A DNA stretch of 64,000 nt. Source: Methanomassiliicoccales archaeon (GTDB lineage Archaea > Thermoplasmatota > Thermoplasmata > Methanomassiliicoccales > UBA472). Location: NCBI GenBank assembly GCA_013415865.1, contig CP058896.1:1469957-1533956 (forward strand), read 5' to 3'. Below, piece by piece: positions 3,227-33,977 of this stretch (positions within the stretch are counted from its first letter, which is position 1; every line of letters begins with the position of its first letter). The notes below the pieces were generated by a model that had not been told where the DNA came from, made no database searches, and worked only from the letters and a program-made list of their open reading frames with translations. Both the position numbers and the translations under genes were made by a program.

Positions 3227-4471
3227 ATGATACAACGGCCGCGTGGAACCAGGGACTTCACCCCTGAGGAGATGGAGACGAGACGATCGTACGAATCAAT
3301 GATGAGGTCGGTCTCAATGTCCCACGGGTTCCGTGAGGTTCAGACACCGATATTCGAGCACACGGAGCTTTTTACCACGAAATCGGGACCTGGCATCGTG
3401 GAGGAGATGTATGCCTTCAAGGACAAGGGCGACAGGGAGATATGTCTCAGGCCCGAGCTCACGGCCTCGGTCATAAGGTTCTTCGTCAACGACCTTACCA
3501 ACTATCCAAGGCCTTTGAAGCTCTTCTATTTCGGGCCTTGTTTCAGGTATGAGAGGCCTCAGGCCGGTCGCTATAGAGAGTTCTATCAGTTCGGTGCAGA
3601 GATCATTGGTTCACCGACACCTGAGATGGACGCCGAGGTCATCGGTCTCGCCGCCTCGATATTGGAAAGGACCGGTCTCATTGATTATAAGATAAGAGTG
3701 GGGCACATAGGCCTTCTGAAAGGAATGCTCAAAGATGCTGGCGTGGAAGATGACAGGGCGTTGCCCATCCTTCAGAAGCTCGACAAAAAGAATTACGACG
3801 AGGCCCGGCCCTTGATGGAATCTGTTGGGATGGGAAGGGAGGACATAGAAAAGGTCATCGCCACGACGAAGGTCACGGGGCCAATATCGGTGCTGAAGGA
3901 TTATGAGGGCGAGGCGAGGGGATACCTTGAGGAAGTGTTCGAGATACTTGGTCACTATGGCCTCAAGAACCTCGAGGTGGACATGGGGGTCGTGAGAGGT
4001 CTGGCATATTATACCGGGATAGTCTTCGAGGTCGATGCCCCGAAACTAGGCGCGGAAAAGCAGATCTGTGGTGGCGGCTCATACTCCCTCAGCGAGCTGT
4101 TCGGAGGGGAGAAGGTATTCTCATCGGGGTTTGCGATCGGTTTCGACAGGACCTTGATAGCGCTGGAGAAGGAAGGGGTCAAACCGAAAAGGTTCAGGAT
4201 GAAGGCCTATGTCGTCCCTGTCAGCGATAACGTCAGGTCCAAGGCATATGAGATAACCGCGCTGCTCAGAAGGGCGGGCATCAGCGCCGACATGGACCTC
4301 ATGAGGAGGAACCTAGCAAAGAACTTCAAGTATGCCGATGCGATCGGCGTCGAGAACGTTGTGATAGTCGGTGAGAAAGAGATGACCTCTGGGGCTGTAA
4401 ATGTGAGGAACATGGCGAGCGGGGAGCAGAAGCTCGTCAAGATCGATGATCTTGTCTCTTATCTTGCTTGA
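3227..4471 (+). CDS. hisS: Histidyl-tRNA synthetase
   Basis: Class II aminoacyl-tRNA synthetase that charges tRNA-His, 414 residues, the normal archaeal length. Near the N terminus is the RGTRDFTPEEM signature. Next comes the RPELTASVIRFF stretch, then motif 2 (CFRYERPQAGRYREFYQFG). The two histidine-specific motifs are RGLAYYTGIVFEV and the GGGSYSLSELFGG loop, and motif 3 is FAIGFDR. A C-terminal anticodon-binding domain of about 90 residues follows. The gene runs convergently into the formyltransferase-family gene, overlapping it by about 13 bp at the 3' ends. Confidence 0.97.
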   Translation: MIQRPRGTRDFTPEEMETRRSYESMMRSVSMSHGFREVQTPIFEHTELFTTKSGPGIVEEMYAFKDKGDREICLRPELTASVIRFFVNDLTNYPRPLKLFYFGPCFRYERPQAGRYREFYQFGAEIIGSPTPEMDAEVIGLAASILERTGLIDYKIRVGHIGLLKGMLKDAGVEDDRALPILQKLDKKNYDEARPLMESVGMGREDIEKVIATTKVTGPISVLKDYEGEARGYLEEVFEILGHYGLKNLEVDMGVVRGLAYYTGIVFEVDAPKLGAEKQICGGGSYSLSELFGGEKVFSSGFAIGFDRTLIALEKEGVKPKRFRMKAYVVPVSDNVRSKAYEITALLRRAGISADMDLMRRNLAKNFKYADAIGVENVVIVGEKEMTSGAVNVRNMASGEQKLVKIDDLVSYLA

Positions 4472-5229
4472 ACAGATCGATCATCGGCCAATGCCGCTTC
4501 AATCTCCTTTGCGAGGCAGGGCGGCCTCTCGAGCTCCTTTCCTTCTCGGTCATAGACCTTTCCGCCCTTTATGACCAGGTCCCCGTTTACCATATGTTTG
4601 ATGACGCTCATCAGGAGATGCCCCTCCCTCCGGACGCCCTCCGCCCGGACCATCCTCCGAAGCTCATCATCGTCCCTTGCCAAGCTTCTCAGCCTCTCAA
4701 CATCGAACGAATCATATGCTATCGCGTCTCCACGGTCCAGATCGGGCGTGCAGACATGGACCGTCGCACCATAGGAGCGGTCCTTGTTCTCGACTACCTT
4801 CTCGATGACCTCCTCCCATGTCCCTTGATAAGTGCCAGGTAGGGCGGGATGCAGATTGATCATCACATATTCCATGCAGGTCTTTGGGTCCAATATGAGC
4901 ATATAGCCCGCAAGGACCCCGAAGTCCATCCGGTGAGGGGAGATGAGCTTCCTCATCTCTTTACCATATTCCTCCCTCCAGGCCTCGATGTCATTGGCCT
5001 TGAGCTCAGGCATGAAGCCGTCCGATGGTAGTATGATCACCGGGATACCCCGGTCCTTGGCCATTTGGACCATCTGCCGCCTGTTCTCATTACCCTTTAT
5101 GTCGCGATTGATGAACATGAACGCCAGCTCTACCTCTATCTCCTTGTCTTCGATCTTTTTCAAGATCGACCTGAACAGGTTCATCGAACCCTGGCCTCTA
5201 GCTGTTGTGAACCAACCTATCCTTTTCAT
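4459..5229 (-). CDS. Formyltransferase-family protein (PurN-like)
   Basis: A 256-residue protein of the folate-dependent formyltransferase fold. The catalytic set of PurN can be followed: Asn and His in INLHPALPGTYQG, and the Asp in TPDLDRGDAI after YGATVHV. PurN transfers a formyl group to glycinamide ribonucleotide in purine synthesis. This protein is longer than bacterial PurN and has a divergent N-terminal region (GWFTTARGQGSMN), so a different formyl acceptor is possible. The start at 5229 is chosen over 5268 because the Rossmann strand begins directly at MKRIGWFTT. It converges with hisS. Confidence 0.75.
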   Translation of the reverse strand: MKRIGWFTTARGQGSMNLFRSILKKIEDKEIEVELAFMFINRDIKGNENRRQMVQMAKDRGIPVIILPSDGFMPELKANDIEAWREEYGKEMRKLISPHRMDFGVLAGYMLILDPKTCMEYVMINLHPALPGTYQGTWEEVIEKVVENKDRSYGATVHVCTPDLDRGDAIAYDSFDVERLRSLARDDDELRRMVRAEGVRREGHLLMSVIKHMVNGDLVIKGGKVYDREGKELERPPCLAKEIEAALADDRSVQAR

Positions 5230-5455
5230 GCCATCACATCTCGATAATGTATCCAGACCGCCACTCATAATGTGCTGGCATGATAAAAAGGCTTGTCGAA
5301 GGATAATAAAGGGATGGGTGCGGGGCCGATGAAGATGGGGGGAATAAAAGCAACTCTTTTAGGAGGAGAGTTGAGCCACCGGCCCACCGCACCTATTATA
5401 CTGTTCTATGATTGTCTATTTATATTTATTTCAGCCCCGCTCGCTATTGGACGAA

Positions 5456-6286
5456 TTATAGCTTGGTCCTTTGTGACATCAGGTCCAGTTCGATATTTAC
5501 CAGTTCGTCGGCCTTGGAGATCATCGGATGCTCCCTCGGTGCATGCAAGATATCATATCTGCGGAAGCTTGAAAGCAGCCCTTGGACCGTGGCGAATAAC
5601 GGTTTTAGGTTCTCCGCTTTGATCTTGTACTCCCCTCTGACCTGCCTTACCACGAGCTCACTGTCCATTGTTATGGCGATCTCAAAGGCACCAAGCTCTT
5701 TCGCCTCTGTCAATGCGTCTATGAGACCATGGTACTCCGCCTCGTTGTTTGACATTATACCAAGGTACCTCGACCCTTTCTTCAGGATATCTCCGTCCTC
5801 GGAGCATATAATATAGGCGCATGCCGCTGGTCCGGGGTTATTCCTCGACCCTCCGTCGGAATAGACGATCAACCTTTGACCATCGGCGCGGAGATCTTTT
5901 TCTATAGGTGCCGTTGCGATCTTTGGCGAAGTATAAGAGATGTCCCTTAGGTACCTGTTCTTGTCATCGACCAATATGACCTTGGGAGCGATGGGCCGGT
6001 CAGTAAGCTCAAATGACATGATGATCACCTTGTCACCTTCCTTCACAAGGTGGGCGGCACCTCCATTGACCGAGACCGTCCCCGAGCCTGGAACCCCTTC
6101 GAAAATATACGTCTCGAATCTGGCACCATTGTCGGCATCAGAGACCAGGACCTTCTCTCCCGGCCATATGTCCGTATGTTTCAACAAAAGAGGGTCCACC
6201 ACGATGCTCCCGACATAGTCTGGATGCCTTTCTGTCACCGTAGCTCGGTGGATCTTGCCTCTGAGCACGAAACGCATGGTCGTCAA
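5456..6286 (-). CDS. panD: Fusion of pyruvoyl aspartate 1-decarboxylase (PanD) and RNase HI
   Basis: One unbroken 276-codon frame holds two enzymes. Residues 4-115 are PanD, which makes beta-alanine for pantothenate. The PanD residues are K11 and H13 (GKIHR), Y24, the self-cleavage site G26-S27 (YVGSI), R56, T59 and Y60 (NGARFETY), and N74 (SVNGGAAH). Residues 138-272 are an RNase HI with the full acidic set: D144 (YSDGGSRNNPGP), E184 (NEAEYHGL), D208 (TMDSEL) and D260 (KADELV). If PanD processes itself, the pyruvoyl alpha chain would carry the RNase H domain. The gene lies just downstream of the ABC importer operon on the same strand. A separate rnhB is at 33333-33977. Domain calls are firm; joint function is unknown. 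Confidence 0.92.
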   Translation of the reverse strand: MTTMRFVLRGKIHRATVTERHPDYVGSIVVDPLLLKHTDIWPGEKVLVSDADNGARFETYIFEGVPGSGTVSVNGGAAHLVKEGDKVIIMSFELTDRPIAPKVILVDDKNRYLRDISYTSPKIATAPIEKDLRADGQRLIVYSDGGSRNNPGPAACAYIICSEDGDILKKGSRYLGIMSNNEAEYHGLIDALTEAKELGAFEIAITMDSELVVRQVRGEYKIKAENLKPLFATVQGLLSSFRRYDILHAPREHPMISKADELVNIELDLMSQRTKL

Positions 6287-6339: not shown

Positions 6340-7137
6340 TCATTTCCTATTGGAATACGAGCCGAATATCTTGACGATGTTGGCCTTCAAGGTTTGGTCA
6401 TACTCCATCACCGCGTCGATGTTGAATACCTTCTGCATGTTCTCTCTTGTCAGGACCTGTTCCGGAGCACCGACCGCAAAGACCTTATGATCATGGATCA
6501 GAACGATCCTGTCGCAGTATTTGACCACCATAGGGAGGTCATGAGAGACGATCACGACCGTGAGCCCCTCATTCCTCGACAGGTCTCTCATAAGGTCGAG
6601 GGTATCGAACATGTGACAAACGTCCAGATGTAGGGTCGGCTCATCCAGAAGGACTATCTCAGGTCTTTGTGCGAGAGCCCTGGCGATGATGACCCTCTGC
6701 CTTTCACCGCCGCTCATAGTGTTGACATATCTTTCCGAGAGGTCTGAGATGTTGGTCTTCCTCATCGCATCCTCTACGATCCTCTCGTCCTCAATGGATT
6801 CGACCTGGAATCTTTCAAGAAAAGGCATCCTTCCCATCATTACTATATCCTTGACGGTGAAGGCGAAACGGATATCGTTGCTCTGCGGAACGACCGCTAT
6901 CTTCCGGGCTATCTGTTTTTTTGTGAGTTTTTCAAGATCAGAGCCTTCGAGCATCACCTTCCCCTTATCTGGGTGCAGGTCCTTGTTCAGGAGCTTCAAT
7001 AAAGTGGTCTTTCCACATCCATTGGGACCAAGGATACCTATTATCTCACCTTTTTTTATCTCGAGGTCAACCCCATCCAGCACGGGCCTCTCTCGATATT
7101 TGAAATGAAGGTTCTCCACGCTCAGCATCAGTCCCAC
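6340..7137 (-). CDS. ABC importer ATPase, iron/cobamide family
   Basis: ATP-binding subunit of a BtuCDF/FecBCDE-type importer, 265 residues. It has Walker A GPNGCGKTTL, a Q-loop in VVPQSNDI, the signature MSGGERQRV, Walker B IVLLDEPTLHLD and the switch His in IVSHDLP. It follows the permease gene with a 10-bp overlap, so the two are translationally coupled. Together with the binding protein upstream they form a complete importer. Substrates of this family are ferric siderophores, haem or corrinoids; the sequence does not say which. ATG codons at 7137 and 7128 are both possible starts. Confidence 0.92.
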   Translation of the reverse strand: MGLMLSVENLHFKYRERPVLDGVDLEIKKGEIIGILGPNGCGKTTLLKLLNKDLHPDKGKVMLEGSDLEKLTKKQIARKIAVVPQSNDIRFAFTVKDIVMMGRMPFLERFQVESIEDERIVEDAMRKTNISDLSERYVNTMSGGERQRVIIARALAQRPEIVLLDEPTLHLDVCHMFDTLDLMRDLSRNEGLTVVIVSHDLPMVVKYCDRIVLIHDHKVFAVGAPEQVLTRENMQKVFNIDAVMEYDQTLKANIVKIFGSYSNRK

Positions 7138-8153
7138 CCCACCTCATGCCTGCGTCTTCGCAACAGATATATGAAGTATGGCGCACCGATGAGAGCGGTC
7201 ACTATCCCGACAGGGAGTATCCCTATTCCTGGGGCGATGACCCTGGAGATGTAATCGCACATCATCAGGAACGATGCCCCCCCGATGAGCGAGGCCGGAA
7301 GCAGTGCTCGGTTGTCTGGCCCCATCAATATCCTTAGTATGTGGGGCACTACAAGGCCCACGAAACCTATGACGCCCACGAAAGCAACGGCCGCCGCGGT
7401 GACCAGGGCAGATGCGACCAATAATTGAAGCCTGACCTTCGGCACCTCGACCCCTAGGTCGAGAGCGTGGTTCCCACCCAGCATCATAGCGTTAAGGTCC
7501 CTGGAACTGGCGATCATCAGGATGCAGCCAGCAGCTATCAGAGGCGCAACTATCAGAATATTGTCCCAGGTTGCATTGGTCAGATTGCCCATGGTCCAAT
7601 ACACTATACCCTGCAACTGCTCGCCTGCGAGGTAGGTGAGAAGTGAGACCAATGCCGAAAGGAACGATCCAACCGCTATCCCGGCAAGAAGCAGGGTCTC
7701 GGTAGGCACCTTTCCACCCACCCTTGATATCGAGTAGACAAGGAACAGCGTTCCCATACAGGTAATGAACGCCAGCATCGGGATCATAAGCAATGATGGC
7801 AGCCAAGAGACCGTGAATGTGAGACCGATCGCGGCCCCCAAGGACGCACCTGATGACAATCCTAGTATGTATGGAGAGGCCATCGGGTTCCTGAACAGCG
7901 CCTGCATCACAGCGCCCGCGATCCCTAGGGCGGCCCCGACCAGACATGTCATGACGACCCTTGGAAGGTTCATCTTCTGGACTATGATGATATTTGTATC
8001 GGAGCCCACCCCGAACAACGCCCAGAAGGCCTCGGAGAACGACAAGGGTATAAATGCCTGGGTAAGGTCCAGGACCATGAATACGAACAGCAATGCGAAT
8101 AAGGCGATATAAACAGTTAGAACCCTCACCCGCCTTTTCCTGGATCCTTTCAT
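7128..8153 (-). CDS. ABC importer permease, BtuC/FecD family
   Basis: Integral membrane subunit of 341 residues with about ten hydrophobic segments. The family signatures GAALGIAGAVMQALFRNPMA and the cytoplasmic coupling region near GGNHALDLGVEV are easily seen, with GFVGLVVPHILRIL later on. It partners with the ATPase encoded next (10-bp overlap) and the binding protein encoded before it. It acts in the cytoplasmic membrane to move iron chelates, haem or cobamides inward. Confidence 0.94.
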   Translation of the reverse strand: MKGSRKRRVRVLTVYIALFALLFVFMVLDLTQAFIPLSFSEAFWALFGVGSDTNIIIVQKMNLPRVVMTCLVGAALGIAGAVMQALFRNPMASPYILGLSSGASLGAAIGLTFTVSWLPSLLMIPMLAFITCMGTLFLVYSISRVGGKVPTETLLLAGIAVGSFLSALVSLLTYLAGEQLQGIVYWTMGNLTNATWDNILIVAPLIAAGCILMIASSRDLNAMMLGGNHALDLGVEVPKVRLQLLVASALVTAAAVAFVGVIGFVGLVVPHILRILMGPDNRALLPASLIGGASFLMMCDYISRVIAPGIGILPVGIVTALIGAPYFIYLLRRRRHEVGWD

Positions 8154-8207
8154 GTGCTCGACCTCGTATCGAATTTTAAAATGGTTTACTGGCGAAGGGC
8201 ATTGCCT

Positions 8208-9278
8208 TCACCTCTTTCTTAATACGAACAAAGTTGCGACGGCCACTATGGCCACTCCTATACCGACCCCTACATACAGGACCATATCGTCACTCTCCGT
8301 GTTATCCGCCTGCACAGGTATCTCACCTGTGAAATATTCTGGATAGAACAGATTGGCAATGGCCCACAGACCGGTCATCGCATCTGGGCAATATGAGTTC
8401 CAGGTCTTGTTCAGCTTATAGACGACGATATCATCATCGCCTATAAGGCTCTTGAACTCATCAGCCGTGCCTGTATAATATCCATCTAGGAGGACAAACT
8501 CAGGCTCGAGCTGCAGGATCGCCGTGAAATCGGCCGAATAGGTAGGGACGGCCTTGGAGGTGTCATTGGCAACGTTGAATCCCCCGGCGGCGTTGATGAA
8601 ATCGACAGTTATCGACCCACCATTACCAAGCTTTAGAATGTTCGAGCTATAGCTGGCATACAGTGCCCTCACTTTCTCCGATGTTTCGTTTATACCATTC
8701 TCCTCAAGGGTCTCGGCAATGTAGGTCTTGACATAGGCCATTTGGTCCGATACATCATGCTCAGCACCGACCACGGTCTCTATGTCCTTCACGACCTGGA
8801 CGACCCCGTCATAGGACGTCGGATAGAAGGTCATCACTTTAAAGCCATACCCTTCAAGTTCTGTCCAGAGCTGGCTAAGATAACCGTAACCATATCCGAA
8901 TATCACATCCGTCGTCTTGTTCCATTCCCCATCGTCCACAAGTTTGAGCATATTTTGGATGACAGCGTCCTTGTTGCTGTTACTGACCGTGATGAACTTT
9001 TCAGATGATACGTTCTTGACCTCCATTATCCCGCTCTTCTCATAGGCAGAGGTCGCATCGAAGATGACAGCCTTATCGAGCTTCCCGATATCGACCAGGG
9101 TTTTGGTCGCAAAGGCCCCGAAAGCGGCCACATGGGTAGCTGGACCTGGTAGCACGATGGTCACGCCGCGCGAGTCTTTTATGACGATGTCGTGGCTCTC
9201 TTCCGCCGCAGTTATCGGTATCGTCCCTGTCAAAAGGGCCAATATTGCACAAATCGCTAGTATCTTCTTAGGTGTCAT
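8208..9278 (-). CDS. ABC importer substrate-binding protein, FecB/BtuF family, membrane anchored
   Basis: Periplasmic-binding-fold protein of the iron/cobamide class. It has an N-terminal signal segment (KKILAICAILALLTGTIPITAA) and a two-lobed solute-binding domain starting at DIVIKDSRGVTIVLPGPATH. A C-terminal hydrophobic helix with a terminal RKR (last 25 residues) should anchor it on the outer face of the membrane, as is usual in archaea. It is the first gene of the importer operon, 55 bp before the permease. Starts at 9302, 9284 and 9278 are possible; 9278 places the basic MTPKK directly before the hydrophobic core and has AGGT nine bases upstream. The substrate is not known. Confidence 0.88.
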   Translation of the reverse strand: MTPKKILAICAILALLTGTIPITAAEESHDIVIKDSRGVTIVLPGPATHVAAFGAFATKTLVDIGKLDKAVIFDATSAYEKSGIMEVKNVSSEKFITVSNSNKDAVIQNMLKLVDDGEWNKTTDVIFGYGYGYLSQLWTELEGYGFKVMTFYPTSYDGVVQVVKDIETVVGAEHDVSDQMAYVKTYIAETLEENGINETSEKVRALYASYSSNILKLGNGGSITVDFINAAGGFNVANDTSKAVPTYSADFTAILQLEPEFVLLDGYYTGTADEFKSLIGDDDIVVYKLNKTWNSYCPDAMTGLWAIANLFYPEYFTGEIPVQADNTESDDMVLYVGVGIGVAIVAVATLFVLRKR

Positions 9279-9410
9279 GGTCATACCTGTAAGAAGAAAC
9301 AATCAGTTATGCCATTGCATTATTTAACGATATTGAGATTTTCCTTTTGTGCCTCTTCCCTTTGATTCATCGACGACATTTTATCAGACACCGCCCCCTT
9401 ACTTCTGCCG

Positions 9411-33332: not shown

Positions 33333-33977
33333 GTGAGATGTGGATTGGACGAGGCGGGACGAGGGCCTGTCATCGGGCCGTTGGTCATCGCTGCGGTCAT
33401 GGTCGATAATGAATCAGAACTAAGGAAAATGGGCGTCAAGGACTCAAAGAGGTTGATGCCATCTAAAAGGTCTGAGCTTGCAAAGAAGATCAAGGAGATC
33501 GCCGAGGTCAACGTCTGTATCATCGATGTCGCCGAGATAGATTCTCGCGGGGATGAGAGGTCGCTGAACGAGCTCGAGATAGAGAAGTTCGCCGAGCTGA
33601 TTGTAAAGATGCGGCCCAAGGAGGTCTTCATAGATGCCTGCGACCCGGTTGAGGAGAACTTCCGACGGTCAATAATGGAAAGGCTTGACTATTCGCCTGA
33701 CATGGTCTGTGAACATAAGGCGGACCAGACCTACCCGGTCGTTTCCGCGGCATCGATCGTTGCTAAAGTGACCAGGGATGAGCTTGTTAAAGAGATCGGG
33801 GCATCTTTAGGTTGCCAGGTAGGAAGTGGATATCCTGGAGATGATGTGACCATAGAATTCATAAAAAGTTGGATAAAGGAGAAGGGGGATTTACCGCCAC
33901 ATACCCGTAGGTCTTGGGAGACGTCTCGAAGGCTTCTGAGCGAGTCCAAGATCCGGAAGTTAACATATTGGGAGTAA
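33333..33977 (+). CDS. rnhB: Ribonuclease HII
   Basis: A 214-residue RNase HII that cuts RNA of RNA-DNA hybrids and single ribonucleotides in DNA. The catalytic acids lie in GLDEAGRGPVIGP (Asp-Glu), the FIDACDP segment and KADQTYPVVSAASIVAK. The start is GTG at 33333, directly before the conserved RCGLDEAGRG. It is the second RNase H in this window, the other being fused to PanD. Confidence 0.95.
   Translation: MRCGLDEAGRGPVIGPLVIAAVMVDNESELRKMGVKDSKRLMPSKRSELAKKIKEIAEVNVCIIDVAEIDSRGDERSLNELEIEKFAELIVKMRPKEVFIDACDPVEENFRRSIMERLDYSPDMVCEHKADQTYPVVSAASIVAKVTRDELVKEIGASLGCQVGSGYPGDDVTIEFIKSWIKEKGDLPPHTRRSWETSRRLLSESKIRKLTYWE

Follow-up and report, generated by a model that had tools for sequence, protein, structure and literature searches.

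In actinobacteria, a ribonuclease HI (RNase HI) is found fused to CobC. The domains of one such protein, MSMEG_4305, are functionally dissociated in vivo and its linker is highly variable; the authors of that work favour fixation by drift (PMC7466739). Aspartate 1-decarboxylase (PanD) carries in Mycobacterium tuberculosis a C-terminal tail that acts as a ClpC1 degradation tag (PMC7125159), and a few archaeal PanD homologues had already been noted in an earlier survey (PMC4537548). Translational coupling is described, in archaea and bacteria alike, for genes with overlaps of −4 and −1 nt (PMC10666635). The preliminary description of the locus analysed here knew of no described PanD–RNase HI fusion, and our search of the literature likewise found no PanD–RNase H fusion; the main text of a survey of archaeal gene fusion and fission mentions neither RNase H nor aspartate (PMC11237513). 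PanD–RNase HI thus seems to be a domain combination undescribed in the literature searched, a new pairing of two ordinary enzymes. We analysed it in a 64,000-nt stretch of the genome of a methanogenic archaeon of the order Methanomassiliicoccales (hereafter the window).

One continuous open frame of 276 codons occupies positions 5456 to 6286 of the window on the minus strand. The fusion gene likely starts at the ATG at 6277: the N-terminus of PanD (MRFVLRGKIHRA) sets in at this codon, and its homologues align with it and start at the equivalent position. On the evidence of the open frame, Pfam, NCBIfam and individual residues, the panD-rnhA gene would then run from 5456 to 6277 (minus strand; stop codon at 5456–5458) and encode 273 amino acids. 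The PanD part (residues about 1–115; 5933–6277, minus strand) is defined by PDB relatives, residues, a fold match and a PF02261 match over residues 5–111 (5.5e-36; 123.4 bits against a curated cut-off of 25), and TIGR00223 gives 103.4 bits on this part, slightly below its whole-protein cut-off of 106. Within the RNase HI part (RVT_3/halophile/Rv2228c type; residues about 134–273; 5456–5878, minus strand), residues 138–253 match PF13456 (7.5e-17) and PF00075 (3.7e-08), both above the curated cut-offs; its assignment also draws on PDB relatives, residues and fold, and the nearest NCBIfam models are those of halophile RNase HI and of the Rv2228c type, with scores below their whole-protein cut-offs.

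The PanD Gly-Ser processing site and the active-site Lys, His, Tyr, Arg, Thr, Tyr and Asn form a complete set in the fusion protein, and the RNase HI acidic set D/E/D/D is intact. K11, H13, Y24, G26-S27, R56, Y60 and N74 of PanD and D144, E184, D208 and D260 of RNase HI each lie where the preliminary description had placed them. T59, in the same numbering, is also present in the PanD part; it matches T57 in the numbering of the Escherichia coli enzyme. Self-cleavage is predicted between the Gly and Ser of the motif DYVGSI (G26-S27). The central claim of the preliminary description, that one frame fuses a complete PanD to a complete RNase HI, is borne out by the frame, by Pfam and by a second species.

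A structure predicted with AlphaFold from 73 aligned sequences, taken from the window and the loci, has a mean pLDDT of 92.2 and a pTM of 0.55. Residues 117–130 (5888–5929, minus strand) fall below a pLDDT of 50 and, having also low identity to the corresponding stretch in the second species, were assigned as a disordered linker. A low pTM despite confident domains is what two confidently modelled domains on a flexible 14-residue tether would give. When the halves were matched separately to the PDB with Foldseek, RNase HI retrieved 3hst and 4e19 and PanD retrieved 4cs0, 4crz and 2c45; the PDB relatives are PanD of M. tuberculosis and E. coli, and RNase H1 of LC11, Rv2228c and Halobacterium.

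The fusion recurs. A second species of the genus (G001), in its own assembly, carries it at 70% protein identity to the source genome of the window (G000), with 84% identity in PanD, 64% in RNase HI and 40% in the linker. Substitutions between the two genes at first, second and third codon positions number 9/10/60 in PanD and 31/31/80 in RNase HI, falling mainly on third positions in both. In a further species of the genus (G002), the genes are unfused, with a 4-nt ATGA overlap. The same domain architecture is found in G072, a distant genus of another family, as a fusion of its own: the linker is a Pro/Ala sequence (DPEPAPAPAGEGK), and compared with its neighbours the junction has gained about 31 nt net. 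Fused rows do not form one group in a tree of 105 concatenated PanD and RNase HI rows, on which the fusion state needs at least two changes, counting starred branches only. By this phylogeny, panD and rnhA have fused at least twice in Methanomassiliicoccales, the G072 case being a long branch from a single draft assembly.

Two genes might have been merged by an error of sequencing or assembly; a sequencing error of this kind was named in the preliminary description as a possible refutation. Such an error would agree with the genes being separate in most relatives and with the indels that metagenome assemblies can carry. We assign it a negligible probability, however: G000 is a one-contig genome of 1.8 Mb, the independent G001 assembly has the homologous linker in a protein of 70% identity, and the junctions contain numerous additional codons, not an indel of one base. 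Because the same architecture occurs in G001 and G072, neither chance nor faulty assembly can account for it in the genus; sequencing error was likewise rejected on the second species and the independent second fusion.

The G000 genome (1,818,080 bases; 99.8% complete) holds no PF02261 or PF13456 (RVT_3) match other than the two parts of the fusion. RNase HII is encoded separately, at 33339–33923 on the plus strand of the window. Upstream of the fusion gene lie, in a conserved neighbourhood, FecCD/BtuCD-type ABC transporter genes for an ATPase, a permease and a binding protein (6340–9302, minus strand). On the other side is the convergent hisS (3227–4471, plus strand), identified by Pfam and neighbourhood comparison and conserved beside rnhA across most of Methanomassiliicoccales. 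A gene for a PurN-like formyltransferase (4459–5268, minus strand), which scores well below the PurN cut-off, separates hisS from the fusion gene; it has a counterpart at the same place in G001 (locus L092, 9105–9887, plus strand), and no match was found at the corresponding place in G002.

Across the order, the two genes are usually separate, yet not always, as a second possible refutation would have had it: of 105 loci with both, 102 have them as separate neighbours and 3 are fused. The RNase HI core lies within 25 nt of the panD stop in 89 of the 105, and the gap is 26–200 nt in 13. Among separate pairs the stop/start arrangements aTGA (ATGA) and TGAtg (TGATG) dominate. Most relatives have the overlapping or near-overlapping stop and start of a coupled pair, the window gene itself being fused. 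The ancestral panD and rnhA were adjacent, overlapping and probably translationally coupled. Since the genes are separate, adjacent and mostly overlapping in nearly all of the order, gene order indicates that the fusion is a local event in which two genes long packed tightly together were merged.

As a separate observation, in several relatives a panD frame without the usual stop runs about 60–220 nt out of frame into rnhA, and the resulting PanD proteins end in unrelated tails whose coding sequence lies over the RNase HI gene (loci L127 of G119, L118 of G070, L087 of G042, L128 of G110, L135 of G106, L140 of G105, L151 of G117 and L154 of G120).

The pair is not always kept together. panD was found alone in 14 loci, 10 of them in genus g2 and the others in G026, G116, one of the copies of G048, and G064, where the locus is a contig end. 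In the 10 sampled species of g2, panD and rnhA are apart; panD stays by the ABC transporter genes, and rnhA lies elsewhere, beside hisS in 7 of 7 species checked. G026 (99% complete; locus L048) keeps panD, directly adjoining hisS, and had no RNase HI match to our query. More generally, convergent hisS adjoins rnhA in 71 of the 98 loci with room for it, and an ABC gene adjoins panD in 56 of 94. Adjacency alone is thus weak evidence of joint function, because the pair belongs to a conserved block with hisS and the ABC genes. Beyond the order, no RNase HI was found beside panD within the flanks examined of 24 bacterial loci, a thin sample of bacteria, or in 8 loci from other classes of Thermoplasmatota. 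A match in locus L072 that extends to residue 182 was considered and rejected, as it was not an RNase H.

These distributions bear on functional coupling, in which PanD tetramerisation or pyruvoyl processing would activate, array or localise RNase HI, or PanD would be under the control of its RNase H moiety, so that CoA supply and the removal of hybrids would be connected. The convergent fusion of the same pair and the long-kept adjacency across the order speak for such coupling, but the separation in g2, the failure to find an RNase HI match in G026 although panD is kept there, the extension of the adjacency to a block with hisS and ABC genes, the divergent and disordered linker, and the bacterial and other Thermoplasmatota loci all speak against it, and we regard it as distinctly unlikely. 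Very unlikely, in our estimate, is a selected device in which a PanD tetramer holds four RNase HI domains in an array, or PanD processing controls how active the RNase H is, so that CoA supply is tied to the removal of RNA–DNA hybrids. If it were true, its mark would be the second, convergent fusion, that of G072; and if the domains influence each other, a vitamin pathway would be linked to R-loop removal. The preliminary description had proposed that beta-alanine and CoA supply are coupled to nucleic-acid processing, a metabolic interpretation that is weakly supported at best, given separate neighbours in the rest of the order, genes far apart in one genus and a genome that lacks an RNase HI match. 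Its alternative, a convenience with no metabolic link, fits better than coupling.

Free RNase HI might still be made, either through internal initiation or because proteases cut the exposed linker. In both G000 and G001 a TTG codon precedes the first catalytic Asp by five residues, the linker is predicted to be disordered, and the ClpC1 tag shows that proteases can reach tails beyond PanD (PMC7125159). This TTG, however, encodes a leucine that is conserved at the N-terminus of RNase HI, and may be no more than a leucine codon; no clear Shine–Dalgarno sequence is visible by eye, and the reading frame is kept across the linker in both species. We consider free RNase HI unlikely.

The archaeal phosphopantothenate synthetase family PF02006 occurs in G000. 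TIGR03812 (MfnA/ADC, the archaeal PLP-type tyrosine/aspartate decarboxylase) exceeds its cut-off in 1 of 61 genomes searched; G000 has no above-cut-off match, only weak partial ones, which makes PanD the probable supplier of its beta-alanine. In some relatives the PLP decarboxylase matches are longer, though still under the cut-off. Of 283 genomes of the class Thermoplasmata that are at least 85% complete, 92 have a PF02261 match, all 92 in Methanomassiliicoccales; outside this class, PanD is present in some further classes of Thermoplasmatota. The simplest reading would be a horizontal gain of panD by the ancestor of Methanomassiliicoccales, an order whose beta-alanine seems to come from a bacterial-type PanD. 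Within Thermoplasmata, PanD was found in this order alone, where MfnA/ADC is nearly absent; PanD has apparently replaced it there as the beta-alanine enzyme. G048, the sole genome of the 61 with an above-cut-off MfnA-type decarboxylase, has two panD copies (L050 and L051), one of which alone has rnhA after it.

We put the probability at about 80% that adjacent, overlapping panD and rnhA merged into a two-domain protein whose parts are independent, the merger being near-neutral or favoured by co-expression. The most likely route would be loss of the panD stop together with an in-frame insert at the old gene junction. The pro-protein would fold, assemble through PanD and, judged by its motif, cleave itself at Gly-Ser into a short beta chain of about 24 residues and an alpha chain that bears RNase HI at its C-terminal end; because the cleavage site is near the N-terminus, RNase HI would not be released. 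The PanD half would form the usual tetramer and convert aspartate to beta-alanine for CoA synthesis. We infer that both enzymes are active and act independently, with no cross-talk between them. The fusion may be near-neutral, or favoured only for co-expression, a possible small benefit; the near-neutral or drift reading is taken over from MSMEG_4305 and probably holds here by analogy. Complete domains, the third-position bias, packed ancestral pairs, the predicted flexible linker, genus g2, G026 and the MSMEG_4305 precedent count for the merger; at least two fusions and long togetherness count against it, in that they could hint at some benefit. The locus offers a well-resolved case of an overlapping pair with no obvious metabolic link becoming a fusion protein, since a single archaeal order shows the genes overlapping, spaced, far apart and fused, and a warning that domain fusion is not proof of functional partnership.

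Among known systems, panD and rnhA of other Methanomassiliicoccales share genes, order and neighbourhood with the fusion but encode separate proteins, usually with overlapping stop and start or short gaps. With bacterial PanD (PF02261), the fusion shares all processing and active-site residues and a fold that matches the E. coli and M. tuberculosis (2c45) enzymes, and its PanD part is expected to be of the class II, PanM-independent type; it differs in that its alpha chain ends in an RNase HI and that its host is an archaeon. RNase HI of the halophile/Rv2228c/LC11 type (4e19, 3hst, 3u3g) is about 38–40% identical to the RNase HI part, with an rmsd of about 1–1.5 Å and the four acidic residues in common, the difference being that the N-terminal partner here is PanD. 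The Rv2228c family model NF005567 scored 107.8 bits against a cut-off of 326, on the RNase H part only, and no C-terminal CobC-type phosphatase was found. The actinobacterial RNase HI–CobC proteins (Rv2228c, MSMEG_4305) likewise combine this RNase HI subtype with an enzyme of cofactor biosynthesis across a variable linker within one lineage (PMC7466739), but there RNase HI is N-terminal and its partner is a phosphatase of B12 synthesis.
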